From the IMG/VR virus record IMGVR_UViG_3300031576_000145, positions 1 to 40,459 of that record: a stretch of 40,459 nt of DNA. One strand, written 5' to 3'. The notes beneath the pieces were generated by a model. It did no database searches. It was not told where the DNA came from and saw only the letters and a program-made list of their open reading frames with translations. Source of the DNA: a virus. A program made the position numbers and the translations under genes. Shown here piece by piece: positions 1,630 through 36,267 of the stretch. Each line of letters begins with the position of its first letter. Position 1 is the first letter of the stretch.

Positions 1630-4191
1630 TCAGTCCTCCTCCGGGATGAAGGCGATCGCCGCCCGCACGCACCGCGGATGCCCGGTCAGATTCGTTTGGT
1701 ACTGCTCGACGGTCCAGACCTGCCCGTTCGCCTCCCGGTCCGTCTGGATGATCCCAACGACGCCATCGGGCGAGGGGGCGCCGTCGAGATGTCCCTGGGG
1801 GAGGCATCCGTCCCCATCGAGGATCTCGACGTGCGCGACCTCGGACTCCTTGTAGAACTCCGCCGCGGCATTCCCGTAGGCGTGCGCGGTCTCCGTCCGG
1901 GCGACCGTCTCCGCACGGCTGAACCCGAGCAGGTCCGTGAGGTCCGCCCGGAGACGCTGGGGCGACCATCCCTGCTCGACCGCGGCCGTCACCTTCGCGT
2001 TGATGTCCGCGCGCATCACGTCGTCGATTGCGAACCGGGCATCGGGATTTTCGACCAGCGTCCCGTCATCGAGTCTCCGCATCCCGACCATTTCCGCGGC
2101 CCGGTCCCGCGCGTATTGGATCGCGCGCTCCGGTGGGGTCCCGAGAACTCCGCCGATCGAAGCGGCGGCATCCTCAAGGCCGGCCGTCGTCGCCTCGAGG
2201 AGCGATGCCTCGATCTCCTCCACGATGCCCGAGAAATCCAGCGGGGGACCCTCTCCTCGCTGCTTCCGGACCGTCCCGGAAGTCGACCTGACGACGACCT
2301 CCGATTCGAACCCGAGCTGCTCCTGCGCCCAGGTGAGGATCCCCGGGAGAAGTCCACTGAGAGCCGCCTGGAGGACGGCCGTCAAGCGCTCCTGCGCGGC
2401 GAGCTGCCCCGCGGGCGATGGATCGGCCTTCGCGAGCGTCACGAGCCTCCTGGCCGCAGCCCGGAACAGGGCCCGGAGTGCCGGAAGCGATCGGTCCCGG
2501 GTGAGCCCGCGCTCGATCTCGAATCGGATGGATGCCGGGATGAGCCCGGAGCGGAACTTCCGGACGTTCCTGCCTTCGCGGGTACGCCGCTCCGCCATGC
2601 GGCTCCACTTCACTAGATCCCGAGCCGCGGCCTGCATCCGCATGGAAGGCCCCTTGGGGGCGCCCCCGGGGCCCGCCTGTGCCCCGAATTCCTCCTGGCT
2701 GGACCCATCCCGAGCCTGCCGAGGACCCTGGAGGGGCCCCGCAGGGCCCACCGAGGCAGCCTGTGCGGCCTTCTCCCGAGCCCGGCGCTTCTCCTCCCGC
2801 TCGGCGATCAGGTCTTCCACGAACACCACGGTTCCGACCGCCGTGACGATGACGGGGGTGTCGAGACCGACTGGCTTCTCCCCGACCTCCTGGAGCACGG
2901 AATCGAACGTCCGAAGGCCCCCATGCGCGTAGGCGATGTTCCGCTCGTACACGACCGTCGGATCCTCGATCTCGTCCCGGCCCCAGGCGAATTCGACCTC
3001 CGGGATCCCCCATGCCCGCTCGATCCACCGGTTGAGCACGTCCGCGATGAAGTTCGCAACCGGACGGATCCCGGACTCCAGCGTCGATTCCTCGAGCTGC
3101 CGCGAGGTTGCCCGGTTCATCATCTTGGCGATCGGGATCGGGGAGACCCCGAACGCCCAGCAGATCACCCGGTCGAGGTACTCCCGGAACTCGTATTTGA
3201 ATTCCCTGGTCTTCGTGGGGATGTACTTGCCCCCTCCGGGCACGAACCGCATCCCACCGACCCGGCGGTCGTCGCGGCCCATCATCAGGTCGTCCCAGAC
3301 CTTCTGGTACTCGCGCAGCCCCTTGGGCGTGATCCCCGCGGGCATCTCGTAGAGGCTGTCGGGGATGGTCCCGTGGGTGTAGTAGGAGAGGTCGTGGAGC
3401 GCCGCCCGGAGTGCGAGGTTGATCGTGATGACAACCCGCTCGGTGCACGACATGCCGAACGGCGCGTCGCTCCTGCGGTTCATGGGGAGATACCAGAGCT
3501 CGCGCATCCGGAAGGCCGTCTCCGGCAGGCCATTCACGACCTGCCAGTACGCGTCCTCCTCTCCGGTAGGCATCCGCCCACGGTCATCGACCAGCGGTCG
3601 GATGGTTGATCCATCCACGAGCTCCAAGCTCGCCGGGTCGCCCCGGAGGGTGAACCGGGGAAGCACGGATAGGGCGTCGGTCACGAGGATTTCGTCCACC
3701 GCGCGGTCCACCCACGCCCGGAAGTCCAGGTCGGCCGACGGATCCGGATACCGAAGGACGGCCCGGATCAGGGCTACCTCGTCGGCCAGCGTGTCCTTCG
3801 AGTCCTTGAAATCCTCCCGGACCCGGACCTGCCAGGACATCCCCCGGATCTGCCCCTTGATGTCCGCCATGCACGCCTGGACCGGCTCGAATCCGGAGAG
3901 GGCCCGGAGGTCGTCAAAGGCCGTGAGGTACTTCCCTCGCCACTGCCGGACGTTCGAGCTCAGGTTGTGGGAGATGTCCGCCCACAGGCTCCGGGGGAGA
4001 ATCCCCCGGGGCAGGATCGGCTCCCGCGGCTTCACCGGGGCGAGGGGTCTACGCCCGCCGGCGATGGTCCGCAGGATGTCCGGGGCCGCGGACGCCGAGA
4101 GCAGTCTCCCGTCGGGCCCCAGGATCGTCGGCATCAGGTCCGCGACCGACGTTCTCTTCGTCGGCGTGACCTTCGTCGCCGCGTCTCTCAC
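1630..4191 (-). CDS. Portal protein fused to MuF-type minor head protein (853 aa)
   Basis: The first half is a phage portal, the dodecameric DNA gate at the head vertex. It contains the typical portal core with RVICWAFGVSPIPIAKMMN followed by ATSRQLEES. A Gly/Pro/Gln-rich linker leads to a helical region and then a C-terminal Mu gpF/SPP1 gp7-like domain from about residue 758. That domain has the AETVARTETAHAYGNAA helix, a DGDGC motif and a terminal HPRCVRAA motif. The two functions are usually separate neighbouring genes; here they are one polypeptide. The start chosen is GTG 4191, because AGGAGGAG precedes it closely. The frame stays open further upstream to a TTG at 4260, and ATG 4134 is another option. 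With GTG 4191 it overlaps the end of the terminase gene by 143 nt. Confidence 0.88.
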   Translation of the reverse strand: MRDAATKVTPTKRTSVADLMPTILGPDGRLLSASAAPDILRTIAGGRRPLAPVKPREPILPRGILPRSLWADISHNLSSNVRQWRGKYLTAFDDLRALSGFEPVQACMADIKGQIRGMSWQVRVREDFKDSKDTLADEVALIRAVLRYPDPSADLDFRAWVDRAVDEILVTDALSVLPRFTLRGDPASLELVDGSTIRPLVDDRGRMPTGEEDAYWQVVNGLPETAFRMRELWYLPMNRRSDAPFGMSCTERVVITINLALRAALHDLSYYTHGTIPDSLYEMPAGITPKGLREYQKVWDDLMMGRDDRRVGGMRFVPGGGKYIPTKTREFKYEFREYLDRVICWAFGVSPIPIAKMMNRATSRQLEESTLESGIRPVANFIADVLNRWIERAWGIPEVEFAWGRDEIEDPTVVYERNIAYAHGGLRTFDSVLQEVGEKPVGLDTPVIVTAVGTVVFVEDLIAEREEKRRAREKAAQAASVGPAGPLQGPRQARDGSSQEEFGAQAGPGGAPKGPSMRMQAAARDLVKWSRMAERRTREGRNVRKFRSGLIPASIRFEIERGLTRDRSLPALRALFRAAARRLVTLAKADPSPAGQLAAQERLTAVLQAALSGLLPGILTWAQEQLGFESEVVVRSTSGTVRKQRGEGPPLDFSGIVEEIEASLLEATTAGLEDAAASIGGVLGTPPERAIQYARDRAAEMVGMRRLDDGTLVENPDARFAIDDVMRADINAKVTAAVEQGWSPQRLRADLTDLLGFSRAETVARTETAHAYGNAAAEFYKESEVAHVEILDGDGCLPQGHLDGAPSPDGVVGIIQTDREANGQVWTVEQYQTNLTGHPRCVRAAIAFIPEED

Positions 4192-5500
4192 GCTCCTCCT
4201 CCTCGTACATCCGTGCCCGCTCTCCCTGCAGATAGGCGAGTTGCCCGGCGTGCCCGCCAAGTCCGGTCTGCTCGAGCCGGGCGTGGTTCCAGATCATGGC
4301 CGCCCAGGCGGCGTCGTCGTGCGATCCCTCCGGAGCCGCGTACCTCCACCTTCCGGACGGGAGCCGCTCGGCGTCGAGTGAGTCCAGCTCCTCGTCCAGG
4401 ACCTCCCATCCGGCGTGGGCGATCTGCTTTTTCTCGACCGCGAGCTGGAACTGCGAGACCATGACCTCCTTGAATTCGTTCGTGAAGGTGACGCCCCGGA
4501 CCGGCAGACCCTGCTCGCGCATGTAGTCGAGCACAACCTGCCCCCCCATGCCGGTCTCGTCCACCCACAGATCCGGATTCCCGTAGGGCTCGATGAGAGC
4601 CGCGGCACGCGCGACCGAGGCGGGCCATGCGATCTTCTGCCAGCGGTCGAAGAACACCATCTCCCCGCTCGCCACATCCCCGATGAGCAACGCGCAGTAG
4701 TCCCTGGCCTTGCCGAGGTCCATCGCCGCGAGATACTCCCGACCCGCCACGGGGTCCGGGCGGATCGGCCTCAGCAGGGCCGACCAGCCCGGAAACAGGT
4801 TCGCCGCCTCCTCGAAGAACTCGGCCTCGTAGAGCTCCCGATACTTCTGCAGCGGCAGCGTCCTGCGGGCGTCCTCGATCTCCTCGGGGGCGATGTGTGG
4901 ATTCTGCCGCGTGCGGATCTTGTGAAAGGAGTGCGCGGGGGTGCCGCGCTGCGCCGCCTTGCACCGCTGATAGAACCAGTTCTTTTTCCCCCTCGCGTTC
5001 GCGACGATCTTCGCGGGGCCGCGGGTCACGGTGAGGGTCGAACGGATCGCCGGCCACGCTTCGCCACGCATCCGGCTCGCCTCGTCCACGACCACCGCGC
5101 GATAGCTCGGCCCGTAGAGCAGTTCCGGCTTCTCGGTCGTCTTGAACTCCATTACAGATCCGTTCGCGAGCGTGATCGTGAGGTCCGATTCGTTCGCCCG
5201 CCGGCGCCGCTCCGGGAGGAGCGCCGCGCAGAGACGGAAACCGATCAGTGCCTGCCGGTACGAGGGCGCGAACCAGCCGAACAGCTGCCGCGGGTGCTCC
5301 CACGCCAAGGCCACGATCCATACCGCGCAGCCCAGCGTCTTCCCGGACTTCGTTCCGGCCACGCAGACCGACCACCGATCGCCTCCGAGGATGAATCCGC
5401 CCTGCGTGTTCGGAACGCGCCTCGATCCCCACAGCCTCGGAAGGTCCAGGACCTCCCGGCGGGGGGTGTCCGAACCGTAGAGAATCCCAGGCGAACTCAA
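4049..5500 (-). CDS. terL: Terminase large subunit (483 aa)
   Basis: This is the ATP-driven DNA packaging motor and headful nuclease. The ATPase domain has Walker A AGTKSGKT (residues 48-55) and Walker B VVVDE (136-140). The RNase H-like nuclease domain has the expected acidic residues Asp261 (AAMDLG), Asp314 (LWVDETG) and Asp395/396 (SHDDAAW). It begins with TTG 5500, because an in-frame TGA lies only two codons upstream. That TGA is also the stop of the small subunit, so terS and terL are in the same frame separated by one stop and one sense codon. The last 50 residues are low complexity, very charged, and overlap the portal gene in another frame, so that tail may be dispensable. Confidence 0.93.
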   Translation of the reverse strand: MSSPGILYGSDTPRREVLDLPRLWGSRRVPNTQGGFILGGDRWSVCVAGTKSGKTLGCAVWIVALAWEHPRQLFGWFAPSYRQALIGFRLCAALLPERRRRANESDLTITLANGSVMEFKTTEKPELLYGPSYRAVVVDEASRMRGEAWPAIRSTLTVTRGPAKIVANARGKKNWFYQRCKAAQRGTPAHSFHKIRTRQNPHIAPEEIEDARRTLPLQKYRELYEAEFFEEAANLFPGWSALLRPIRPDPVAGREYLAAMDLGKARDYCALLIGDVASGEMVFFDRWQKIAWPASVARAAALIEPYGNPDLWVDETGMGGQVVLDYMREQGLPVRGVTFTNEFKEVMVSQFQLAVEKKQIAHAGWEVLDEELDSLDAERLPSGRWRYAAPEGSHDDAAWAAMIWNHARLEQTGLGGHAGQLAYLQGERARMYEEEERERRGDEGHADEENVGRGPDADDPGARRETALGVRGPGHPADHRRRA

Positions 5501-5503
5501 GGA

Positions 5504-6001
5504 TCAATGCACCTGCTCCTGGTGTGAGACGATGTCGTCATCCCCGATCCGAGCGATCCACTCGACGTTCCGCACGGTCGCGTCGACCTCCTGGTGGACG
5601 CCATAGCCCCGGGATCGACCGCGCGTCTCCAGGACGTACCGGATGGCATCCCACGACCCTTGCCGAACGCGCTCGAACGCCTTCATCTCGGCGAGGTCGA
5701 CGATGTTGTCCTTCGCGCAGGTCATTTCCTCCGCGAACGACTTGTCGAGCTGGGCATCCTTGTAGACCGCGGCGCGGGAGACGCCCGCCTGTTTCGCCGC
5801 GGCCGACACCGACGCATTCATCGCGAGCGCACCCAGGATCTTCCCGCGGGTCAGCGCGTCGAGCTTCCGGAGATCGTCGCGCACCCGGCGCTTGAGACGA
5901 CAGTCGGGGCAGATCTGCTCGTCGGCACGCCGCGCCTTCGGACGTTCCCCCTTCTTCCGGATCACCTGAGGCCGAACTCCCATCCGCGTTTTCCGATCCA
6001 T
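5504..6001 (-). CDS. terS: Terminase small subunit candidate, HTH protein (165 aa)
   Basis: A basic N-terminus with a CPDC pair (possible zinc site) is followed by a helix-turn-helix around AMNASVSAAAKQAGVSRAAVYK, then a helical region. This is the typical layout of a small terminase that binds the packaging site and recruits the large subunit. Its position directly before terL supports the call. The start ATG 6001 has no clear ribosome site: the U-tract of a strong hairpin terminator ends 8 nt upstream. Expression may therefore depend on readthrough. It could alternatively start at a GTG a few codons later. Confidence 0.8.
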   Translation of the reverse strand: MDRKTRMGVRPQVIRKKGERPKARRADEQICPDCRLKRRVRDDLRKLDALTRGKILGALAMNASVSAAAKQAGVSRAAVYKDAQLDKSFAEEMTCAKDNIVDLAEMKAFERVRQGSWDAIRYVLETRGRSRGYGVHQEVDATVRNVEWIARIGDDDIVSHQEQVH

Positions 6002-6009
6002 TCGAGCCG

Positions 6010-6049
6010 AAAAAAAGGGGACCCGCGGGCGTGGGTCCCACGGGTCCCC
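6010..6049 (-). terminator. Rho-independent terminator or attenuator before terS
   Basis: Arms GGGGACCCG and CGGGTCCCC (6041-6049 and 6017-6025) form a 9-bp stem with a further internal GGG/CCC pairing. On the minus strand the stem is followed directly by seven T residues (6016-6010). It separates the methyltransferase gene from the packaging genes and lies just 8 nt before the terS start. Confidence 0.8.
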
Positions 6050-6068
6050 TCAATCTCGGTCTTCGAAG

Positions 6069-6095
6069 GCCGCCCGGCTAGCTAGGCCGGGCGGC
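6069..6095. other. Perfect 10-bp inverted repeat between methyltransferase and terS
   Basis: GCCGCCCGGC at 6069-6078 pairs with GCCGGGCGGC at 6086-6095 around the 7-nt loop TAGCTAG. There is no T-tract on either strand, so it is not a standard terminator. Its place in the non-coding DNA next to terS makes a packaging-site element conceivable. Confidence 0.6.
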
Positions 6096-6101
6096 GGCTT
6101 G

Positions 6102-6127
6102 GCCTATCGAGAATAGCCTATCGAGAA
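6102..6127. repeat. Tandem 12-bp direct repeat
   Basis: GCCTATCGAGAA occurs at 6102-6113 and again at 6116-6127, separated by TA. The centre-to-centre spacing of 14 bp puts the two copies on nearly the same face of the helix. It could be a protein-binding site, possibly for the small terminase. Confidence 0.6.
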
Positions 6128-6146
6128 CTCCTTCTGGCCGCATGCA

Positions 6147-10272: not shown

Positions 10273-10293
10273 TCTCTGTTTACCTCTTGATCA

Positions 10294-10368
10294 TGGTCGC
10301 GGGAACAGGATTTGAACCTACGTCGTCTCGCCCCCAAAGCGAGTGCCTCGCCTCTCGGCCATCCTGCG
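10294..10368 (-). tRNA. tRNA-Pro(TGG), with encoded CCA
   Basis: Cloverleaf on the minus strand: acceptor CGCAGGA with TCCCGCG (one A-C mismatch), D-arm GCC/GGC, anticodon stem CTCGC/GCGAG around the loop TTTGGGG (anticodon TGG, U33 present), a 5-nt variable loop, T-arm GTAGG-TTCAAAT-CCTGT, discriminator A and encoded CCA. Only 4 nt (CTTT) separate it from the next tRNA upstream. Confidence 0.85.
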
Positions 10369-10372
10369 AAAG

Positions 10373-10446
10373 TGGTAGCGGGGGCAGGAATCGAACCTGC
10401 GTCTCTCGGTGATCTGCCGAGCGCCGTTCCATTGGGCTACCCCGCG
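10373..10446 (-). tRNA. tRNA with encoded CCA; anticodon by position GAT, atypical loop
   Basis: Acceptor CGCGGGG with CCCCGCT (first pair C-T mismatched), D-arm GCC/GGC, anticodon stem CTCGG/CCGAG around the loop CAGATCA, T-arm GCAGG-TTCGATT-CCTGC, A plus CCA. Position gives anticodon GAT (Ile), but residue 33 is A instead of the near-universal U, so the identity or function is doubtful. The remaining features are canonical. Confidence 0.75.
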
Positions 10447-10450
10447 AAAC

Positions 10451-10573
10451 TGGAGCCGGGGAGGGCCGTCGAACATCACCTGGAAATCGACGGCTGGAAC
10501 GGATGCTCTCGTCGAGGACTTGGACAATCCGCGTGGCCTTAGTCCTACGCCAGGTTTCCATCTCCTCCCCGGC
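10451..10573 (-). ncRNA. 123-nt tRNA-like element ending in CCA
   Basis: On the minus strand a perfect 10-bp closing helix, GCCGGGGAGG (10573-10564) with CCTCCCCGGC (10464-10455), is followed by TCCA (10454-10451). GTTT then leads into the next tRNA, the same 4-nt spacing as between the two tRNAs. Inside are possible helices AGGACT/AGTCCT and a 7-bp hairpin CCGTCGA/TCGACGG. The loop of that hairpin (TTTCCAGGT) can pair with GGAAA or ACCTGG upstream, giving a possible pseudoknot. A normal T-arm was not found. It may be a tRNA-like RNA, an intron-bearing tRNA or a decayed tRNA. Confidence 0.45.
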
Positions 10574-10587
10574 AAATTGGATTCCTT

Positions 10588-10746
10588 TCAATAGCACTCG
10601 GCCTCATGAGGAGATCCAGGATGTTCGCCAGCGCCATCACAGCAAGGACAGCAACCTTCGCATGTCGTTTCTGCAAGTGGCGGCTCTGGACCCATGCAGC
10701 GATTGTCCGGATTGTGGCCGCTCCCTTGACACACAGAACAAGTCAT
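10588..10746 (-). CDS. Small Cys-rich zinc-binding protein, DnaJ-like (52 aa)
   Basis: Two CxxCxGxG-like units (CSVCQGSGH near the start and CPCCDGAGEH near the end) resemble the zinc centre of DnaJ. Other cysteines are in NRC, TTCEGC and the C-terminal AECY. It probably folds around one or two zinc ions and may bind protein or nucleic acid. Start ATG 10746, with GGGAG about 9 nt upstream; the frame is open further upstream but that part looks non-coding. It is transcribed with the tRNAs just downstream. Confidence 0.7.
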   Translation of the reverse strand: MTCSVCQGSGHNPDNRCMGPEPPLAETTCEGCCPCCDGAGEHPGSPHEAECY

Positions 10747-11140: not shown

Positions 11141-11875
11141 TCAGCGAGTCCGCCCGGAAATTCCCGACTCCTCGAAGATGCGCACGCCGGGAACCTCGCG
11201 GATCCCCTGATCGATGTCCTTCTGCAGAGACCTGCCGTCGAGCGCAAGGTACTTCCTCGGGATCTCGTCCAGGTTCTCGACCGCGTAGGTCCACCGTTTC
11301 CTGACGGACACAGTTCCAGACCCGGTATAGATCGTCTTCTGAGGTTCCTCCGGGATCGGGGCGCGAGCCTCGATGCGCGACGCCGCAGCCTCACCGGCGA
11401 GTTCGATCTGTTCGGCGCTCCTGCCCGAGGCGGAGGCCTTCTCTTCCGCCCGTGCGCGCGCGGCCTGAGCTTTCGCCGCCACCTCCGCCTCGTCCTTTTT
11501 CCGCTTCGCCTCCTTCCCATCGAACCACCGAGTCATCCGTTCCTCCAGCCTCCCGGATGAGGCTTCGACCTGCGTCCGGATCGGACGGAAGCACCCGTCG
11601 ACCATCCTGGACGCCGTCTCGAACGGCCCCTTGATCTCCTTCCGATCGGCCTCGATCCCAGCGTGTGCCCGCCTGAGCTCGAGCGTGAGGGATCCGGCGA
11701 GCTCGAAATCTTCCTGGGTGAGTACGCGGATCGCATCCGAGCGTCGGCAGACGTCGGCGACGAGCTGGGCCCACTTTAGAACCCGAGCATCCTCAGCGGT
11801 GATTGGCTGGAGCCTTTGGAGCTCCCCCTCCCCCGTCTCTTCGGACAGTATCCTCGGTCGCTGAATCGGTTGCAT
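11141..11875 (-). CDS. Coiled-coil phage protein of the recombination/replication cassette (244 aa)
   Basis: The long central helix is rich in Lys, Glu and Ala (about residues 90-165) and is a clear coiled coil. The C-terminal 60 residues, with RKRWTYAVENLDEIPRKYL and GIREVPGVRIFEES, match a domain often seen in phage proteins encoded near single-strand annealing proteins. Start ATG 11875 has AAGGAGG 6 nt upstream. The first 83 nt overlap the end of the replication gene in a different frame. A role in genome replication or recombination is inferred from this context. Confidence 0.72.
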   Translation of the reverse strand: MQPIQRPRILSEETGEGELQRLQPITAEDARVLKWAQLVADVCRRSDAIRVLTQEDFELAGSLTLELRRAHAGIEADRKEIKGPFETASRMVDGCFRPIRTQVEASSGRLEERMTRWFDGKEAKRKKDEAEVAAKAQAARARAEEKASASGRSAEQIELAGEAAASRIEARAPIPEEPQKTIYTGSGTVSVRKRWTYAVENLDEIPRKYLALDGRSLQKDIDQGIREVPGVRIFEESGISGRTR

Positions 11876-13016
11876 GCGTTCCTCCTTCTCCTCCCCTCAG
11901 GGGAGGAAGAACCTTGTCCAGGTGGGCTTCGACTTCCGAAAGAGTTCTTCTGGTGTAGGTCGGATCCTCCGAAGTGTGTCTGGTCTCCTCCTCGAGGAGC
12001 ATCCTGCGAACCGAGACCCGTCGTTTCTCCCGGTACTCTGGAGTCTCCGGGGCTGCACGGCTCGTGGCAGCCGCGATCCGACCTATCTCTGCTCCCAGAA
12101 GGATCAGTCGCGGCCGGAGCACGTTTCCGGTGTGCTTCCAGAGATTGAGGATTGCCCGGCCTTCCTCCAGGCGGGCGTAACTCCGGAACCTCTCCAGATC
12201 GGCCCCGGTTCGAAGGATCAGATCGAGGTGGTCGAACCTGGTTGACCGATCATTCGCTCCCATGTGGTGGGGCGAGGAAGCACACCCGATGATCGCCATC
12301 AGCATATCCTCGTCCGTGTAGCCCTCCCTGCGACGAGCGTGGTACTTCGAGAGCCGCTTGGACTCCATCTGGAGAGCGCGTGGATAGCCCATCATGTCGC
12401 GCCAGAAACGGAAGACCAGCGGATACCCACCGGCGGGGGGGAGGGGGGGGTTAACTCCTGATCCAGGATCCTGATCCGGATCCGGATCCGGATCTGAACC
12501 ATCCTTAATGCCATGCGCCGCGATGCGCGGCGCTGCGCCGCCCTGCGCCGCGGTGCGCGGCGCTGCGCCGCCCTGCGCCGCGGTGCGCGGCGCTGCGCCG
12601 CGGTGCGCGGCGCTGCCCATATCTGAATCTTCAATAATGCCAATGTCCGGCGCGGCGGTGCGCGGCGCTGATCCGCCCTGTTCTCCTGCTGGCGCGGGGA
12701 ATTGCCCGACGCGCCCTCGGGTCCTCTGATATTTCCCCCAGGTCGGGAATGCACCGAACCTCTCCCCCGAGACCGTGTAGAGCTGGATGATCCCCTCGCG
12801 CTCGAGCTCGGCGAGGAGCGACACCATCTGCTCCTGGGGAAACTTCCCCTGGCGGCGCGGGTAACACGCGGCGATCGCGAGTTCGGGGTCGGCCTCGAAT
12901 CTCCCGTTGCAGTCGGCGGCACTCACGAGCCTCCAAAAGAGCCGCTCGCCGGCATCCGAGAGGGCATCGAGAGACCTGGACCGCCGAGCCTTCTCGTGGA
13001 TCAGACGCTTCGCCAT
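11793..13016 (-). CDS. Replication initiator-like protein with winged-helix N-terminus (407 aa)
   Basis: The N-terminal 115 residues form a winged-helix domain like that of phage replication initiation/replisome organiser proteins (LIHEKARRSRSLDAL, then LLAELEREGIIQLY and FPTWGKYQRTRG). The middle is a low-complexity linker of Ala/Pro/Arg/Gly repeats and alternating Asp-Pro, encoded by a 10-bp repeat array and a GATC cluster that resemble an origin. The C-terminal half is helical and carries YHARRREGYTDEDMLMAI, similar to the DnaD/phage O C-terminal helicase-loader region. Start ATG 13016 has AAAGGAGA upstream. The layout recalls lambda O, whose gene contains the origin. Confidence 0.75.
   Translation of the reverse strand: MAKRLIHEKARRSRSLDALSDAGERLFWRLVSAADCNGRFEADPELAIAACYPRRQGKFPQEQMVSLLAELEREGIIQLYTVSGERFGAFPTWGKYQRTRGRVGQFPAPAGEQGGSAPRTAAPDIGIIEDSDMGSAAHRGAAPRTAAQGGAAPRTAAQGGAAPRIAAHGIKDGSDPDPDPDQDPGSGVNPPLPPAGGYPLVFRFWRDMMGYPRALQMESKRLSKYHARRREGYTDEDMLMAIIGCASSPHHMGANDRSTRFDHLDLILRTGADLERFRSYARLEEGRAILNLWKHTGNVLRPRLILLGAEIGRIAAATSRAAPETPEYREKRRVSVRRMLLEEETRHTSEDPTYTRRTLSEVEAHLDKVLPPLRGGEGGTHATDSATEDTVRRDGGGGAPKAPANHR
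12460..12494. repeat. Cluster of six GATC sites (GGATCC-type short repeat)
   Basis: GATC at 12460, 12467, 12473, 12479, 12485 and 12491; the last four have an exact 6-bp period. It encodes the Asp-Pro run of the initiator linker. It adjoins a long G-run (12435-12450) on one side and the iteron array on the other. Confidence 0.85.
12514..12613. repeat. Ten tandem 10-bp iterons inside the initiator gene (putative origin)
   Basis: Units TGCGCCGCGA, TGCGCGGCGC, TGCGCCGCCC and TGCGCCGCGG repeat head to tail ten times, with an eleventh copy apart at 12659-12668. Ten bases equal one DNA turn and are not a codon multiple, so the repeat is kept at DNA level. Two similar AT-richer segments (12490-12513 and 12619-12645) flank the array and share ATCTGAA and TAATGCCA. 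This is a good origin-of-replication candidate. Confidence 0.7.
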
Positions 13017-13072
13017 TCCCTCTCCTTTGGGTTCGGTGAATGTCGGCGTGCCGACAGCGTTCATGGATCAGA

Positions 13073-13267
13073 TCATTTCTGAGGAGAACGATTTCTCTTT
13101 CGGCCCGGCCGTTTCGCCTTTCGGAACCAGCGGGTCGAGTGACACCGCGGACAGCTTTTCGGAGCCTCCGGGAATACCGGAGTCCATCGGTGTTCGCAGG
13201 CGAGGCAGGTGAGAATTGGGAGTTCAATCCGGTCGCCCGGGGATGGAGCGGCAATAGCCCTCGGCAT
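13073..13267 (-). CDS. Zinc-ribbon protein, first gene of the leftward unit (64 aa)
   Basis: Contains CLACEHRW and CPRCHSTRW, a four-Cys zinc ribbon, then a strongly basic C-terminus (FRKAKRPGRKRNRSPQK). This suggests a nucleic-acid-binding protein; being first behind the divergent promoter, it could be a regulator. Start ATG 13267 with CAGGAGG 6 nt upstream. Its message starts about 15 nt upstream if the predicted promoter is right. Confidence 0.8.
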   Translation of the reverse strand: MPRAIAAPSPGDRIELPILTCLACEHRWTPVFPEAPKSCPRCHSTRWFRKAKRPGRKRNRSPQK

Positions 13268-13289
13268 CGCTGGCCTCCTGTAAGGCGAA

Positions 13290-13326
13290 AATATATCTTG
13301 ACACGCGCCGGGTGTCAAGGTATTTG
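13290..13326. promoter_or_regulatory. Divergent overlapping promoters in a palindromic operator
   Basis: CTTGACAC (13297-13304) and GTGTCAAG (13312-13319) form a perfect 8-bp inverted repeat around 7 bp. Each arm supplies a TTGACA -35. Rightward: TTGACA 13298-13303, a 17-bp spacer, TATTTG 13321-13326. Leftward: TTGACA 13318-13313, a 17-bp spacer, TATATT 13295-13290. One dimeric regulator bound here would block both promoters, which drive the only two gene units of the genome. Confidence 0.8.
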
Positions 13327-13340
13327 TTTAGAGAAAAACA

Positions 13341-13362
13341 AGGGCCCCCGAGGGGGGGCCCT
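13341..13362. promoter_or_regulatory. Hairpin in the leader of the rightward unit
   Basis: AGGGCCCCC (13341-13349) pairs with GGGGGCCCT (13354-13362) around the loop GAGG. It ends 2 nt before the AAGGAGG ribosome site of the first rightward gene. On the minus strand it is followed by TTGTTTTTCTC and could stop leftward transcription. Confidence 0.65.
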
Positions 13363-13376
13363 GAAGGAGGAACGTC

Positions 13377-14480
13377 ATGCAAGACGAGAAGGTAGCAGGT
13401 TCATCTGGTTTTGTCAACACCGATCCCGATCCAGAGGCCGAGATCTTCCGACCGGAAATCATCCAGGAGGAGCGAGCCATCCTGAAGCGACGGATCGCGG
13501 CGCCGCCGACGCTCTTTCAGCTGGCACTGCGCGGCGCCAACGACCCGGAAGAGATTGCCAGGCGGCTCGAAACTTTCCTCGAATCATTCGACAAGGTCTG
13601 GCTGCGGCGCATCCAGCCCGAGTGGATGGTCGAGTTCGAGGGCATGGAAGGCGAGAGGGTCTACCGGCCGACGTTCGCGGCGGCGCTCCAGGCAGCGAAG
13701 GTCTATGGGATCTCGGTGGAGTCGTTCCGGCCAATGCACGATCATGGCGTCCACCGGGGAAACCCGAACCCGCTCCGGACGGTGCTCGATTCCGGAGCCG
13801 TGATGTACGAGCTCTGGGCGACCGGTTTCGTGGGAATCACGGGGGAGGAGATCCCGCCCGTCCGCGCGGCGCGGCATTCGAACGAGAAGTTCATCGGCCG
13901 GGCGACGAAGAAGCGCGACCGGATCGTCGATGGAGAAACCGTCGAGGGCGAGCGCGTCGATCCGGACGCCGCGGAGATGGACCTGGTCTCGAGCGTCATC
14001 ACGCTCGCGATGAAGAAGGTCTACCTGATCGGGGCAGGCAAGATCCTCATCACCCGCAGCCAACTCGAATCGATGCTCGCCCCGGAGCAGAGGGAGAGCT
14101 GGTTCCGGCGGGTCCGGAAGGGAGCCGGCCACGGGAAGGCCCAGGACCGGGAGGAGGGTCGTTCGACCGATGCGGACCAGCCGGCGACGGAACCGATGGC
14201 CAAGCGCACCTGGGCCCTGTTCATCGAATGGGGCACGGCGCACAAGGTCGGGGAAGCCCGGACGAAGGCGTACCTGCGGGAGTGCCTCAAGGAGCTGGGC
14301 GTCGAAAACCTGACCGAGAAGGAAGTCGACATCGATGGCAAGAAGAAGAAGCTCCCAGGCCTGAGCCGAGCTCAGATGCGCACGCTCTGGGCTCGCGTCG
14401 AGTCCGAGACGAAGGCCGCGAAGGAAGGGCATCCCGTCGCCGGCGTCGCGGAAGGGAAGGTCGCCAGTGTCGCATCCTGA
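13377..14480 (+). CDS. First rightward-unit protein, unknown; possible DNA-annealing protein (367 aa)
   Basis: Soluble protein with an acidic N-terminus, a helical middle (WLRRIQPEWMVEF, then YRPTFAAALQAAKVYGISVE) and a basic C-terminus with RTWALFIEWGTAHKVGEAR and LTEKEVDIDGKKKK. No family is certain. Its position just before a Cas4/RecB-like nuclease is where phages often encode a single-strand annealing protein, so that is one possibility, not a call. Start ATG 13377 with AAGGAGG 7 nt upstream. It is the first gene after the operator and so probably among the earliest expressed. Confidence 0.75.
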   Translation: MQDEKVAGSSGFVNTDPDPEAEIFRPEIIQEERAILKRRIAAPPTLFQLALRGANDPEEIARRLETFLESFDKVWLRRIQPEWMVEFEGMEGERVYRPTFAAALQAAKVYGISVESFRPMHDHGVHRGNPNPLRTVLDSGAVMYELWATGFVGITGEEIPPVRAARHSNEKFIGRATKKRDRIVDGETVEGERVDPDAAEMDLVSSVITLAMKKVYLIGAGKILITRSQLESMLAPEQRESWFRRVRKGAGHGKAQDREEGRSTDADQPATEPMAKRTWALFIEWGTAHKVGEARTKAYLRECLKELGVENLTEKEVDIDGKKKKLPGLSRAQMRTLWARVESETKAAKEGHPVAGVAEGKVASVAS

Positions 14481-14703
14481 ACGGGAGCCGGAGGCAGTCC
14501 GTATCCTCCGCGAGCTCTCCGAATGGATGTACGAGCACAGGACTCCCGATCCAGAGGATCGGAGACCCGATCACGGCGTCACGGTCTCCTGCGGGGGGGA
14601 ATTCCTCCTCTGTCAGACCTGCGACGAGACCTGGCCGAAGGAAGGATTGGAGAAGGTTCTCCGAAGACTCCGGAAGGGAGGGGTCGCGAATGCCTCAACT
14701 TGA
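14467..14703 (+). CDS. Small protein with CxxC motif (78 aa)
   Basis: The N-terminal helix (AVRILRELSEWMYEHR) is followed by a Cys...CQTC segment (CGGEFLLCQTCDETWP), a likely small metal site, and a basic helix. Start GTG 14467 gives a 14-nt overlap with the preceding gene and has AAGG-type sequence upstream. It overlaps the next gene start by 14 nt. Function unknown. Confidence 0.65.
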   Translation: MSHPEREPEAVRILRELSEWMYEHRTPDPEDRRPDHGVTVSCGGEFLLCQTCDETWPKEGLEKVLRRLRKGGVANAST

Positions 14704-14896
14704 GCCCGACATCGAGGTCACCTCTCAGCACCCGCGGACGGAGCGGATCGTATTTCGGAAGCATCTGCTGCTCAGCATCTGGCCCGATGGGTCCCAGGAA
14801 GCGTGCTACCACCGGGCACTCCCTGCCGGGACCGTCATCTGGATCTGGCCCCCGAGGCCGAAGGAGAGTCCCGATGCGGGAACCCAGGAACACTGA
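14690..14896 (+). CDS. Small hypothetical protein (68 aa)
   Basis: Beta-rich short protein with one Cys and a Trp/Pro-rich C-terminal half (GTVIWIWPPRP). Start ATG 14690 with AAGGGAGGGG upstream, overlapping the preceding gene by 14 nt and the following nuclease gene by 23 nt. The overlaps suggest a translationally coupled string of genes. No family recognised. Confidence 0.6.
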   Translation: MPQLEPDIEVTSQHPRTERIVFRKHLLLSIWPDGSQEACYHRALPAGTVIWIWPPRPKESPDAGTQEH

Positions 14897-15893
14897 CCTC
14901 GCCGGCCTCCACCGATCGATCTGGCGGGACATCCAGCACGACATCGACTCCGATGTCTACATCCCCAGGAATCCCATCGCCTCCGGCCTCCACATCCCCT
15001 GTCCTCGGAAGCTCTACCACGACGTCGTGGACGCCGCAATCCGGCCGAAGTTCGAGGTCCAGGAGAAGTTCCGGGCGAACCGCGGCAAGAGCCGGGAACG
15101 ATGGTGGACGTCGTATCTGACGGAGCTCGGGGGCCGGGCGCGGCCTCGGTTCGAGTTCGTGGCCGCGCAGGAGCGGGTCACGATCCCGGATCGGCGGGGA
15201 AGGATCATCCTCTCGGGGAAGATCGATGGACGGATCGTGTTCGGCCAGCGCCGGAGGCGCGAGATCCCGGTCGAGTTCAAGGCCCCACACGACGGGACCT
15301 GGGAGAGCATCGAGACGCTCGCCGATCTCTCCCGCATGCCGTGGAGGCAGGGCGACGTGTGGCAGATGTGCGCGTACCTCTACGGGCTCTCCCGCGAGGG
15401 GAAGGACTATCCCCTGGGAGCGCTCATCTACGACGGCCCGGGGTTCCCCAAGATCCTCGAGGTAGAGCTCGAGCGGCACCTGGAGGGAATGGAGCGCTGG
15501 CTCGCGATGTCGGAGGCCGCGATGGACGCGATCGAGAAGCGAGAGCCGCCGCAAGGAGTCGATTCCGCGCCCGCCTGCACGATGTGCTGGGCCCGGGACC
15601 GCGTGTGCTTTCCGAAGCTCCAGCACCCGCCGCATGAGGTGATCACCGGGGAGGAGGAGGAACGCAACGTCGCGCGGCTCGTGGAACTCCGCGAAGTCGG
15701 CGAGGAATACCAGCGTCTCCAGGAGTGGGCGAAGGAGAGATTCCGGGGGGTCCGGGAGGCTCTCTGCGGGCCGCATCTGATCCGGGGAAGCTACTCCCCG
15801 CTCACGAGATACATGGTTCCGGACCGGATCCGGGATCGATTTCGAGTCGTGGACCAGGAGGGACAGTTCAGGTTGCAGATCGAGAAACTCTAA
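14874..15893 (+). CDS. Cas4/RecB-like PD-(D/E)XK nuclease with Fe-S cysteines (339 aa)
   Basis: Nuclease core: Asp118 in GKIDGR, Glu134-X-Lys136 in VEFKAP, and Gln164/Tyr168 in VWQMCAYLY, the order of RecB-family exonucleases. One N-terminal cysteine (Cys43 in IPCPRKLY) plus Cys235, Cys238 and Cys245 in CTMCWARDRVC reproduce the four-Cys iron-sulfur site of Cas4 and AddB. It probably degrades DNA ends and may serve phage recombination. Start ATG 14874 with AAGGAG 8 nt upstream; the same frame is open further upstream but without a ribosome site. No cas1, cas2 or CRISPR array is present, so it is not part of CRISPR adaptation here. Confidence 0.87.
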   Translation: MREPRNTDLAGLHRSIWRDIQHDIDSDVYIPRNPIASGLHIPCPRKLYHDVVDAAIRPKFEVQEKFRANRGKSRERWWTSYLTELGGRARPRFEFVAAQERVTIPDRRGRIILSGKIDGRIVFGQRRRREIPVEFKAPHDGTWESIETLADLSRMPWRQGDVWQMCAYLYGLSREGKDYPLGALIYDGPGFPKILEVELERHLEGMERWLAMSEAAMDAIEKREPPQGVDSAPACTMCWARDRVCFPKLQHPPHEVITGEEEERNVARLVELREVGEEYQRLQEWAKERFRGVREALCGPHLIRGSYSPLTRYMVPDRIRDRFRVVDQEGQFRLQIEKL

Positions 15894-15924
15894 ACAGGGA
15901 CCCACACGGGGCAGGAGGCATGCC

Positions 15925-16596
15925 ATGCAACGGAAGGGTCAGACTTTGCTTCGCGCGTTGATCAAGCCCAAGAATCTCATCCGGGTGGCGATTCCCATCC
16001 GGGGCACGGCGCCGTTCGTGCAGCATCGGTTCGGCGCGAAGGCGCAGGAGTTGATGCGGAAGAAGCAGGAGGAGGGAGAGGCGGCGAAGTCGAAAAGGGA
16101 TCGAGCTCCGAAGGATTTCGAGGCCCTGTACCAGGACGCCATGTATCGGACGAAGGACGGGTGGCGCGGGATGCCTTGTTCGGCATTCCGGAACGCCATG
16201 ATCTCCGCGTGCCGGATCTGCAGCGTCGTGATGACCAGGGCGAAACTCGCGATCTTCGTCGATGCCGACGGATACGATGAAGTGGAAGGAACACCACTCG
16301 TCCGGATCACGAAGGGCGAACCGCATATGCACATCGCGCCGGTGAGGAACGACGACGGGAGCGCCGATCTGCGTGCCCGCGGCATGTGGGATCCGGGCTG
16401 GGAGGCCGTCCCAAGGATCGTCTTTGATGGGGACATGTTCAGGTTCGATGACATTGCAAACCTTCTGGATCGGGTCGGCCATCAGGTAGGTATCGCAGAG
16501 GGCCGGCACGACTCTCCGAACAGCGCGGGGATGGGCTGGGGAACCTTCGAGATTCTCATGGACGAGGCGGCAGGGAAGAAGGCCGTGAATGAGTAA
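15925..16596 (+). CDS. Conserved phage protein (223 aa)
   Basis: Contains IRVAIPIRGTAPFVQHRFGAKA, then GMPCSAFRNAMISACR, then VGIAEGRHDSPNSAGMGWGTFEI. This pattern of blocks is familiar from phages of proteobacteria but has no assigned function. The Gly-rich C-terminal segment is notable and could contact nucleic acid, which is speculation. Start ATG 15925 with AGGAGG 6 nt upstream. It overlaps the next gene by 8 nt, so the pair is likely co-translated. Confidence 0.78.
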   Translation: MQRKGQTLLRALIKPKNLIRVAIPIRGTAPFVQHRFGAKAQELMRKKQEEGEAAKSKRDRAPKDFEALYQDAMYRTKDGWRGMPCSAFRNAMISACRICSVVMTRAKLAIFVDADGYDEVEGTPLVRITKGEPHMHIAPVRNDDGSADLRARGMWDPGWEAVPRIVFDGDMFRFDDIANLLDRVGHQVGIAEGRHDSPNSAGMGWGTFEILMDEAAGKKAVNE

Positions 16597-17137
16597 GGCT
16601 GCAATTTCCACCCGCCTTCGGATCGAGATTGAGACCAACCCCGGGACTCCGGCTCCGCTTCGGAGGATGCGGCCCGCGCAGGTTTACTCGGAACTCGAAA
16701 GGATCCGATCCGAGTCCGGCGGCGGCGTCCTGGAGGAGCGGGCGGTCTGGCTTGCCTCGCGGAAGAAAACGGATCTTCTCTATTCCTGCTTCACTTGGGA
16801 TGATCGGCAAGCCGCGGCGCAATGGCGAGATCAGGAAGCGCGGTGCATCGTGGAGGCCGTGGTGTTCGTGGATGCGAACGAAGGAACTTCCGTCCGGGCA
16901 TGGTCGCACGTCACGATCAAGGATCGAAGCGGCTACATCCTGACGACGGAGGCCGTGGCCGAGCCGGAGCTGAAGTCGCAGGTCATGCAGGAGATCCTCC
17001 GGTATCTCGCGGGCGCGAAGTCGAGGCTGCAGAGATTCCAGGGATTCGCGCGCGAGGTCTCGGCGGTGGATCGGGTGATCCGGATCGTCGCCAGGCGCGC
17101 GAAAAAACAGACGGACCCAGAAGGTCCCGCGACTTGA
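16589..17137 (+). CDS. Conserved phage protein (182 aa)
   Basis: Central block LLYSCFTWDDRQAAAQWRDQEARCIV resembles a family common in phage early regions (aromatic-Trp-Asp-Asp...Ala-Ala...Arg pattern). The C-terminal part is helical and basic. No catalytic motif is visible. Start ATG 16589 lies 8 nt inside the previous gene. Downstream comes the GGCNN pentamer array instead of another gene, so this is the last gene of the first rightward block. Confidence 0.75.
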   Translation: MSKAAISTRLRIEIETNPGTPAPLRRMRPAQVYSELERIRSESGGGVLEERAVWLASRKKTDLLYSCFTWDDRQAAAQWRDQEARCIVEAVVFVDANEGTSVRAWSHVTIKDRSGYILTTEAVAEPELKSQVMQEILRYLAGAKSRLQRFQGFAREVSAVDRVIRIVARRAKKQTDPEGPAT

Positions 17138-17378
17138 CGGGTTCGTCAGGGCATGGCGTGGCGTGTCTGGGCAGGCCCGGCGCGGAGAGGAGAGGATGGC
17201 GCGACGCGGCCAGGCCTGGCATGGCAGGCGCGGCTGGGCCGGACGTGGCCAAGTGAGGCATGGCACGGTAGGCGGGGCGGGGCTTGGCAGGCGAGGCAAG
17301 GCCCGGCGATGCGCGGCGAGGCTGGGCATGGCGTGGCAGGCGGGGTGGGCATCGAGCCCTGGCCTGCGAGGAGGATAG
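17138..17378. repeat. Degenerate GGCNN pentamer array
   Basis: From about 17150 to 17345 the DNA advances in 5-base steps, most starting with GGC, with a few one-base phase slips. The clearest stretch is 17290-17339: GGCGA, GGCAA, GGCCC, GGCGA, TGCGC, GGCGA, GGCTG, GGCAT, GGCGT, GGCAG. Other runs are at 17150-17164 and 17213-17227. Frames through it read as Trp/Arg/Gly/Ala repeats without a good ribosome site, so it is treated as non-coding. It sits between two rightward genes; its role is unknown. Confidence 0.8.
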
Positions 17379-17759
17379 ATGCCGAAATCGGGACAGGGGG
17401 AGCTCTTCTGCATGGAGGCGGAAGGAGTGGAGAGCTTCCCCGTCCCGACCTCCCCGCTCGCGCGCCGGGATCATCCGGCGACCTCGCACGAATCCGCGGC
17501 GGCGCTCCGAGGCTCCTGGGAGCTCGGTCGCCTCCAGGCGGAGGCCCTCCAGATGGTCCGGGAGCATCCCGGATCGACCACCCACGAGCTCGCCGCATTC
17601 TGCGGGCTCCACGACGAACGGATCCTCGGTCGGCGTCTCTCGGAACTCGGCGCCCCCGGCGTGGGCCTGGTAGTCGTGAACGGATCCAGGATCGATCCCA
17701 TGACGGGGCGCCGCTGCCAGACCTGGGCCCCGGCCCGTGGGGGACCCTCCGGCCCGTAG
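17379..17759 (+). CDS. Winged-helix DNA-binding protein (126 aa)
   Basis: After a short linker with DHPATSHESAAAL, a helix-turn-helix follows (AEALQMVREHPGSTTHELAAFCG, LHDERILGRRLSELGAPG). A wing with VVVNGSRIDPMTGRRCQTWA comes next. This ends like the winged-helix proteins widely found in phages (RxxTGRxCxxW). It probably binds DNA and may be a regulator of the unit. Start ATG 17379 with GAGGAGG 4 nt upstream, directly behind the pentamer array. Confidence 0.78.
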   Translation: MPKSGQGELFCMEAEGVESFPVPTSPLARRDHPATSHESAAALRGSWELGRLQAEALQMVREHPGSTTHELAAFCGLHDERILGRRLSELGAPGVGLVVVNGSRIDPMTGRRCQTWAPARGGPSGP

Positions 17760-17849: not shown

Positions 17850-17878
17850 TTGACTTCCGTGGTACATGGGGGTACATT
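17850..17878 (+). promoter_or_regulatory. Secondary rightward promoter
   Basis: TTGACT (17850-17855), an exact 17-bp spacer and TACATT (17873-17878). GGTACAT occurs twice, 10 bp apart (17861 and 17871), inside the promoter and could be an operator. It lies in the 142-bp gap before the gene at 17902. Confidence 0.65.
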
Positions 17879-22732: not shown

Positions 22733-22936
22733 ATGACGAAGGAAAGAATCTGGCGGCTCCGGGTGAAAGAGAGCCTCCACCAGGAGACCATGAGCGAGAT
22801 CCGCCGCCTGGGGCTCGATGACGGGCGCGCGCTCTCGGCGTACATCCGGGCGGCGGTGCAGGAACAGAACGCCCGCCGGAACCGGGCCCGGAGGCGCCGC
22901 CCGGCGCCGCTACGAGCCGGGACTCTCGTCGGCTAG
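22733..22936 (+). CDS. Ribbon-helix-helix candidate, last rightward gene (67 aa)
   Basis: Short strand (WRLRVKESL) followed by two helices (QETMSEIRRLGLDDGRALSAYIRAAVQEQN) and a very basic tail, fitting a CopG-like ribbon-helix-helix DNA-binding protein. A regulator of the divergent operator would be a sensible role, but nothing links them directly. Start ATG 22733 with TGGAGG 6 nt upstream. Its 3' end overlaps the convergent lipoprotein gene by 27 nt, with no bidirectional terminator between the two units. Confidence 0.65.
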   Translation: MTKERIWRLRVKESLHQETMSEIRRLGLDDGRALSAYIRAAVQEQNARRNRARRRRPAPLRAGTLVG

Positions 22937-23230: not shown

Positions 23231-23649
23231 GTTCGACCTCCCTTCGCATGCCGCCCGGCAAAGAGCCGGACGGATCGGTAGACGAACCAGGCCCGGACGG
23301 CGTTCATGCCGTCCTCCCGGCAGATCCGGCGGAGGATCCTGTCTGCGGCCTCCCTTGCCTTCGCGGGCAGGACCCCCAGCCGGATCAACTGGTAGAGGGC
23401 GTCGTGGATTGCGGACGCCCTCAGAAAATTGGCGGTGTCGAGCGCCGGCCCGGAGGCACCGTCCCAGGCGTATCCAGCCCGGAGCCTCAGGACTCCGAAC
23501 TGGTTCAGGGCGAGCACGCCGCAGATCACCGCAGGCTCCACGGGCGTGAGGCCGACCGCAAGGCTGTAATGCTCCGTCACCTGGTACTTGTATTCCCGGC
23601 CGGACGCGCCCTTGATCGGAGGCCGGAGGATCTCGCAGGAGAAGGGCAT
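23227..23649 (-). CDS. DUF1353 phage protein (140 aa)
   Basis: Contains LRAGYAWDGASGPALDT, then RASAIHDALYQLIRLG, then GMNAVRAWFVYRSVRLF: the DUF1353 signature blocks, including a His-Asp pair. This family lies near phage lysis genes; its reaction is unknown, though the conserved His/Asp suggests a metal or catalytic site. Start ATG 23649 (or 23652) lies in the ATGATG at the end of the sigma-like gene and is coupled to it. Confidence 0.83.
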   Translation of the reverse strand: MPFSCEILRPPIKGASGREYKYQVTEHYSLAVGLTPVEPAVICGVLALNQFGVLRLRAGYAWDGASGPALDTANFLRASAIHDALYQLIRLGVLPAKAREAADRILRRICREDGMNAVRAWFVYRSVRLFAGRHAKGGRT

Positions 23650-24005
23650 CATGCCTCCCGCCGGAGGAGGATGCGCCGGAGGTCGCGCCTCGCCGCCAGG
23701 ATCCTCTGACGGACCCCCTCCCTCGTCACCCCGGTCCGGTCCGCGATCCCCTGGAGCGTCATCGGATCGCGCCCCCCGAGGCCGAACCGGAGCCGGAGAG
23801 CGACGGCCTCCCGGCGCGGGATCCTCCGGAGCGCGCACAGCAGGAGGGCCGTCCGCTCCCGTGCGAAGGCAACCTCATCCGGCATGGGGCCAGGATCCAC
23901 GAGGCGATCCTTGAACCGCTCCCCATCCCGGTCGCATCCGTCAATGGGCCAGGTCTCAAACGGCAGGCCGATGTCGGCATCTGGGCGGAGGCGGACGTGA
24001 GGCAT
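23649..24005 (-). CDS. Stand-alone sigma-70 region 4-like protein (118 aa)
   Basis: Residues about 55-112 have ALRRIPRREAVALRLRFGLGG, then MTLQGIADRTGVTREGVRQRI, the exact layout of sigma-70 region 4 that reads the -35 box and binds the RNA polymerase flap. Regions 2 and 3 are absent. It could redirect host polymerase to phage promoters or act as a late activator or anti-sigma-like factor. It is placed between lysis genes. Start ATG 24005 overlaps the previous stop (TGATG). Confidence 0.75.
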   Translation of the reverse strand: MPHVRLRPDADIGLPFETWPIDGCDRDGERFKDRLVDPGPMPDEVAFARERTALLLCALRRIPRREAVALRLRFGLGGRDPMTLQGIADRTGVTREGVRQRILAARRDLRRILLRREA

Positions 24006-24172
24006 CAGCGTTTCCGGGTCATGTAGTAGCGGAGGGCGTTTTCGATTTCGGAGCGTGTCGCACGGAAATCCTCGGCGATGTCCTCGATGCTCTCACCAGC
24101 CTTGAACAGAGCGGCAATCGCGACGGGACGGAGGGGCTTGCGGCTGGGCGGGGCAGGCTGAGGGGATGGCAT
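24005..24172 (-). CDS. Small HTH protein (55 aa)
   Basis: A Pro-rich start is followed by VAIAALFKAGESIEDIAEDFRATRSEIENALRYY, a compact helix-turn-helix like the DUF433-type domain of small antitoxins. No toxin partner is adjacent. Start ATG 24172 with AGTAGGA about 9 nt upstream. The coupling TGATG to the sigma region 4 gene suggests the pair may work together in transcription control. Confidence 0.65.
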   Translation of the reverse strand: MPSPQPAPPSRKPLRPVAIAALFKAGESIEDIAEDFRATRSEIENALRYYMTRKR

Positions 24173-36210: not shown

Positions 36211-36267
36211 CCCGAAAAGCAAAGGGGCCGCCGTGAAGGTCGTGGCCCCCACGACGGCCCCTTGCTT
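36211..36267 (-). terminator. Terminator-like hairpin inside the late unit
   Basis: AGCAAGGGGCCGTCGTG and CACGGCGGCCCCTTTGCT (minus strand, 36267-36250 and 36235-36218) form a long stem with few mismatches. The tail is TTTTCGG. Lying between the HK97 gp10-like and tail completion genes, it may reduce readthrough and set a head/tail expression ratio. Confidence 0.6.

Follow-up and report, generated by a model that had tools for sequence, protein, structure and literature searches.

The DNA analysed here (the window, 40,459 nucleotides) is the whole of IMG/VR virus record IMGVR_UViG_3300031576_000145. Its first and last 127 b are identical and form a direct terminal repeat, from which we take the genome to be circular with a length of 40,332 b. 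Two genes diverge from a gap of 109 bp at 13268-13376, as a preliminary description of this DNA had stated: the leftward one has its ATG at 13267 with an AGGAGG, the rightward one its ATG at 13377 with an AAGGAGG, both of them good ribosome-binding sites. The 8-bp inverted repeat claimed for the gap is likewise present, at 13297-13319, with TTGACA inside both arms. The features in and around the gap are as follows.

13073 to 13267, minus strand: first leftward gene, 64 aa, zinc-ribbon-like, with an Arg/Lys-rich tail
13288 to 13328, no strand: extended symmetric region, 41 bp, 16 of 20 positions pair
13290 to 13318, minus strand: predicted leftward promoter PL, -35 TTGACA at 13318-13313, 17-bp spacer, -10 TATATT at 13295-13290, score 14.55
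13297 to 13319, no strand: inverted repeat CTTGACAC-N7-GTGTCAAG, axis 13308, centre GCGCCGG, candidate operator
13298 to 13326, plus strand: candidate rightward promoter PR, -35 TTGACA at 13298-13303, 17-bp spacer, weak -10 TATTTG at 13321-13326, score 8.17
13341 to 13362, minus strand: T1, GC hairpin of 9 pairs with TGTTTTTCT after it, resembling a terminator on the minus strand alone
13377 to 14480, plus strand: first rightward gene, 367 aa, no detectable relatives
13389 to 13417, minus strand: candidate for another leftward promoter, TTGACA-17-TACCTT, its -10 preceded by TGC, score 9.87

Promoters were sought with a sigma70-type weight-matrix scan of both strands and, in addition, of 55 gene-upstream regions. 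PL has the best score both in the genome and among the 55 regions, compared with a maximum of 12.1 in 20 one-strand shuffles, and no other host-type (sigma70) promoter of the genome is strong; PR ranks fifth. The preliminary description had placed each TTGACA box 17 bp from a -10 element; both spacers are indeed of this length and the leftward TATATT agrees with the consensus at five of six positions, but the rightward TATTTG agrees at just three of six, is without the important final T and reaches 0.37 bits in the -10 matrix. The -35 of PR lies inside the PL spacer (13296-13312) and the -35 of PL inside the PR spacer (13304-13320), the symmetry axis coinciding with both spacers, and the gap therefore presents the sequence pattern of overlapping divergent sigma70 promoters, namely opposite -35/-10 pairs in one gap with mutually overlapping elements. 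From this placement it follows that two polymerases should not bind simultaneously, the exclusion of the second being deduced from footprint size and geometry, and PL and PR probably work as a strong and a weak host-type promoter of which only one can be in use at a time; their predicted starts lie about 50 bp apart. The possible further leftward promoter at 13389-13417 is inside the 5' end of gene 13377 and points into T1; its score is within the genome-wide chance range. On the plus strand T1 would present a 5'-UTR hairpin just upstream of the Shine-Dalgarno sequence of gene 13377. T1 scores 24, equal to the best of 12 one-strand shuffles (borderline genome-wide), and folds at a z of about -4.

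Arms of 8 bp carry little weight by themselves, as 299 pairs of 8-bp inverted repeats within 40 nt are found in the genome. It is the extension of the symmetry, together with its location, that makes the inverted repeat at 13297-13319 unusual. Around the axis, 10 of 11 positions pair as far as the arm ends and 16 of 20 over the full 41 bp; dinucleotide shuffles of the 109-bp gap reached the former value in 0.2% of cases and the latter in none of 2000. When the two -35 and two -10 hexamers are excluded, six of eight positions still pair (P about 0.004), so that the symmetry exceeds what two promoters need. This near-perfect symmetry past the promoter hexamers suggests that the promoter pair is also an operator. 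Axes with 16 of 20 pairs number four in the whole genome, where shuffles give 0.22; besides the one described here, all are located within a repeat of the replication gene. Against the operator reading stands the spacing of the half-site centres, which at 15 bp (about 1.5 turns) departs from the one or two turns usual for a simple dimer. The search for further copies proposed with the preliminary description found the full palindrome exactly once in the record, while CTTGACAC alone has one extra exact copy, at 10725, which is within chance. TTGACA is not enriched in the genome (9 copies, 7.3 expected), and CTTGACA occurs four times against about 2.5 expected from base composition, the two palindrome arms being the only copies mutually close.

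The replication initiator gene itself (11793-13064) contains dense GC palindromes and direct repeats (GCGCCGCG..., GATCCGGATC...) at 12467-12613, which are possibly iterons or an origin as in lambda O, or merely a repetitive linker. An RNA family scan returned two tRNAs only, tRNA-Pro(tgg) and tRNA-Ile(gat), at 10294-10446 on the minus strand, where they overlap a predicted small ORF at 10280-10597.

Three further features bear on how far the two transcription units depend on the gap.

6015 to 6051, minus strand: T2, 15-pair intrinsic terminator between the methyltransferase gene and the gene for TerS (small terminase subunit; start 6001)
17850 to 17878, plus strand: second-best promoter of the genome, TTGACT-17-TACATT, score 10.44, in the gap before rightward gene 17902
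36222 to 36263, minus strand: T3, 18-pair intrinsic terminator within the structural genes, just before gene 36193

Upstream of the structural genes the gene-upstream scan found no sigma70-like promoter scoring above 4.5, against 14.55 at PL; from the methyltransferase gene (7511, 8.23) to the end of the leftward unit the scores are at most 4.5, with the exception of 6.6 at 24172. As the structural genes are without a sigma70-like promoter of their own, the leftward unit plausibly begins at PL. The assertion that all leftward genes leave from the gap is borne out to this extent, but two strong terminators would have to be read through. T2 and T3 both score far above shuffles, and the T-tract of T2 reaches to within a few bases of the TerS gene (5504-6001, a phrog_4044 match), leaving no room for a promoter between them; the large terminase subunit is encoded by the minus-strand frame 4049-5500, and not by the overlapping frame 4188-5507. 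Transcription from PL would accordingly meet a strong stop at T2 before every late gene, which implies read-through, antitermination or another promoter class. T2 is preceded by an exact direct repeat (TTCTCGATAGGC, twice) and by a second hairpin of 10 pairs, and this whole segment (6015-6146) may serve as a point of antitermination or attenuation between the early and the late genes. A nut- or put-like role of the TTCTCGATAGGC repeat is conceivable; the repeat was sought near PL and not found. The parallel assertion that all rightward genes leave from the gap is doubtful, since some of these genes would be served by the better-scoring promoter at 17850-17878, whose -10 ends 23 bases before gene 17902, rather than from 13.3 kb. 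At the convergence of the two units (22910-22936) the gene ends overlap and there is no convincing terminator. Leftward transcripts running on round the circle would meet their first strong stop at T1, which lies upstream of PL.

Several known arrangements resemble the site in part. As in lambda-type OL/PL and OR/PR regions, a compact gap separates diverging early genes and palindromic sequence covers promoter hexamers; unlike those regions, there is one palindrome in place of several operators and no repressor gene at the site. A lambda-type immunity region is rejected, as no lysogeny repressor, integrase or resolvase family was found among the 53 proteins scanned. In mycobacteriophage L5-type systems, stoperators occur as many genome-wide copies of an asymmetric site containing TGTCAAG; such a system is rejected here on the copy number of CTTGACA. 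A closer parallel is offered by plasmid pLS20. Overlapping divergent promoters of unequal strength are known to act as switches (PMC4207663), and the Pc and Pr promoters of pLS20, with their regulator RcoLS20, are likewise a stronger and a weaker sigma70-type promoter that overlap and face opposite ways within a single intergenic region, one of them feeding a long operon, with an exclusive occupancy that follows from geometry (PMC4207663). They differ in that each pLS20 promoter has its -10 where the other has its -35, and its -35 where the other has its -10 (PMC4207663), whereas in the phage each -35 lies in the spacer of the other promoter, and in that pLS20 has an adjacent regulator gene, many sites and looping (PMC4207663), in contrast to the single palindrome and no known adjacent regulator in the phage. 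At bidirectional promoters opposing polymerases exclude each other sterically, and compete when one direction is strong (PMC12825309). The phage site resembles the E. coli bidirectional sigma70 promoters (Warman et al., PMC12825309) in being pseudo-symmetric DNA on which polymerase can load in two ways, one excluding the other. Those promoters however have a common -10 and starts 10-23 bp apart (PMC12825309), while the phage has separate -10s, a shared -35 region and predicted starts about 50 bp apart, and for this reason the site is not assigned to that class.

With the activity of the promoters, their mutual exclusion, the role as operator and the identity of the regulator all inferred from sequence, we give a probability of roughly 0.58 to the reading that early expression of a circular tailed-phage genome is controlled at this site, where a strong PL and a weak PR overlap and exclude each other and where the symmetry would also provide an operator. 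Host RNA polymerase would occupy PL/PR in one orientation at a time, and a symmetric regulator on the operator would block both promoters together. PL would drive the replication and early leftward genes as far as T2, with the late genes beyond it depending on read-through, antitermination or another promoter class; PR would drive the first rightward genes and the promoter at 17850 would serve the remainder. The site is not the sole control point of the genome. The preliminary description had proposed that a single dimer bound here could switch the whole genome, a proposal that finds no support, mainly because of the terminators T2, before the late genes, and T3, within the structural genes, and further on account of the 17850 promoter and the weakness of PR. 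The palindrome does however cover the strongest promoter of the genome and the sole candidate promoter of the first rightward genes, so that the earlier observation was mostly right and its interpretation partly so. If the reading proposed here is true, an uncultivated phage launches its program at two closely packed host-type promoters that exclude each other, an arrangement for which plasmids provide precedents.

The regulators that had been named fare less well: neither the winged-helix protein at 17379 nor the RHH-like protein at 22733 has a Pfam match, and the zinc ribbon at 13073 has a sub-threshold match only. By its position as the first leftward gene and its Arg/Lys-rich tail the zinc ribbon (13073-13267) would suit an antiterminator. 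Two other genes, lying among the lysis genes, deserve attention, the first of them having been overlooked earlier.

23649 to 24005, minus strand: free-standing sigma70 region 3.2-4 protein, 118 aa
24005 to 24172, minus strand: DUF433 (helix-turn-helix) protein, 55 aa, its stop overlapping the start of the sigma region 4 gene in TGATG

The DUF433 gene precedes the sigma region 4 gene and the two are translationally coupled (23649-24172). The sequence of the 118-aa protein matches Pfam Sigma70_r4 (1e-8), the phrog_351 sigma factor (5e-11) and RpoD region 4 PDB chains. Its predicted fold, a model of moderate confidence (pLDDT 65), resembles SigA region 4 structures at 40% identity and about 2 A, with the -35 DNA complex 1ku7 among the matches, although none of the Foldseek E-values is below 0.001. 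Residues V93, T94, R95, E96, R99 and Q100 are identical to the -35 contact residues VTRE..RQ of what we take to be the E. coli RpoD sequence. Sigma70_r2 has no match in the six frames of the genome, controls being positive in 11 of 14 cases; with the -35 recognition helix but without region 2, the protein is a fragment and not a full sigma factor. No relatives of it were found in annotated phages or viral contigs.

Since a region 4 recognition helix should read TTGACA, this protein is the most economical candidate for one that sees both arms, and thereby the best candidate for the regulator, its binding at the palindrome being presumed from these resemblances; it or its DUF433 partner would be considered first for that role. 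An explanation that makes it the regulator outright would have it bind both TTGACA arms and shut off PL and PR late in infection, or replace host sigma region 4 on host polymerase. Besides the domain matches and the identical contact residues, it has in its favour that its presumed target is exactly the half-site and that the genome has no sigma region 2. Yet TTGACA is not enriched in the genome, the gene is placed among the lysis genes and is absent from a relative with an identical PL, and isolated sigma region 4 usually binds DNA weakly; moreover TTGACA is the generic host -35, so that its coincidence with the half-site is expected anyway. We regard this explanation as rather unlikely, and still a little more doubtful is the general principle that would follow from it, in which regions 3.2-4 of a primary sigma factor, encoded by the phage as a free-standing piece, act as a promoter-specific regulator through their own -35 helix, with a mirrored -35 pair as operator, and turn off the host-type promoters that began the infection. 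The occurrence of the sigma region 4 gene beside that of the DUF433 protein nevertheless makes it possible to test whether a virus can employ a piece of a sigma factor as a regulator in its own right.

Other readings change the role of the palindrome itself. It could be an operator of PL only, the left TTGACA being a mirror half-site rather than a -35, with the rightward unit starting at 17850 or at a phage-specific promoter. The poor -10 of PR (TATTTG, 0.37 bits) and the position of the only good rightward promoter, at 17850, speak for such an arrangement, which we hold to be improbable but worth serious consideration, as the left TTGACA stands at exactly 17 bp from a partial -10 and PR is the sole candidate for the opening genes of the rightward unit (13377-17759), before which rightward scores otherwise reach 2.8 at most; with no other rightward candidate in the gap, these genes would be left promoterless. 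That one strong leftward promoter has acquired a mirror TTGACA by accident would agree with the unremarkable TTGACA count (9 against 7.3 expected) and with the absence of the repeat from relatives, and is made very unlikely by the shuffles (0.2% for 10 of 11 pairs, 0 of 2000 for 16 of 20) and by the six of eight pairs outside the hexamers (P about 0.004). Slighter still are the chances that the inverted repeat acts as RNA, as a bidirectional intrinsic terminator or a leader hairpin halting transcripts that run round the circle. The scan does list it as terminator-like on both strands, a 12-pair hairpin folds stably and the converging units end at 22910-22936 with no convincing intrinsic terminator, but the tails (GTATTTGTTTAG / ATATATTTTC) are interrupted, the stem has only four G-C pairs, the better dedicated minus-strand terminator T1 is 22 bp away, the arms are the exact -35 consensus and PL is near-consensus.

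A search for relatives through portal protein and AAA ATPase alignments yielded 117 IMG/VR loci. The nearest relatives in the structural genes show 31-44% identity (portal/MCP) and are either fragments or almost complete genomes. G001 (38.9 kb), the nearest of the larger relatives that were found, also has a leftward TTGACA-17-TATATT as its best promoter, near or upstream of the first early-region leftward gene; G001 has no palindrome, no sigma-4 gene and no apparent divergent unit. The palindrome and the zinc-ribbon gene are absent in 14 related records, and the sigma-4 gene is absent from the structural relatives. Searches of viral contigs with single proteins (the 13377 gene product, Rep, TerL and sigma-4) confirmed no close relatives, and the gap DNA had no match in annotated phages. 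Across all viral contigs a single unrelated copy of the exact palindrome turned up, in an AT-rich contig of 91 kb where it stands at the end of a gene, indicating that it is not a widespread operator.

The fully consensus symmetric promoter, TATA-N2-TTGACA-N9-TGTCAA-N2-TATA, was not found in IMG/VR viral contigs. In about 85,000 species genomes it occurs in 13 stretches (13 bacterial contigs), most of which adjoin one conserved gene in Sedimentibacter-type bacteria, recognised by eye as what is presumably nusB. The complete symmetric geometry thus exists in nature and is rare. The Sedimentibacter-type promoter has the same geometry as the phage site, TTGACA-N9-TGTCAA with -10s at 17-bp spacing on both sides; it differs in that both -10s are consensus-like, in that the arms are longer and conserved between species, and in being cellular and not of a phage. 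In this set (L138-L150) a perfectly symmetric promoter, TATAGATTGACA-N9-TGTCAATCTATA, stands by the putative nusB in many Sedimentibacter-type genomes, with conserved arms and a variable centre.

The rightward module (the ATPase and the 21774 protein, once with the 15925 protein) is present in other phages, and may on this ground have been joined to a PL-type backbone; the palindrome could be a product of the step that set PR back-to-back against PL. Long terminator hairpins very similar to T3 (GGGGCC...GGCCCCT) are seen in relatives G001 (35434), G002 (13625) and G004 (5799), downstream of the portal gene, T3 being located elsewhere in the structural genes. A phage contig with the ATPase module in common (L013) carries three near-identical rightward promoters at 8391, 9794 and 12184 (CTTGACAC, GTACCAG, TAGTAT), as well as a repeated operator-like sequence, CTTGACACNGTACCAG.
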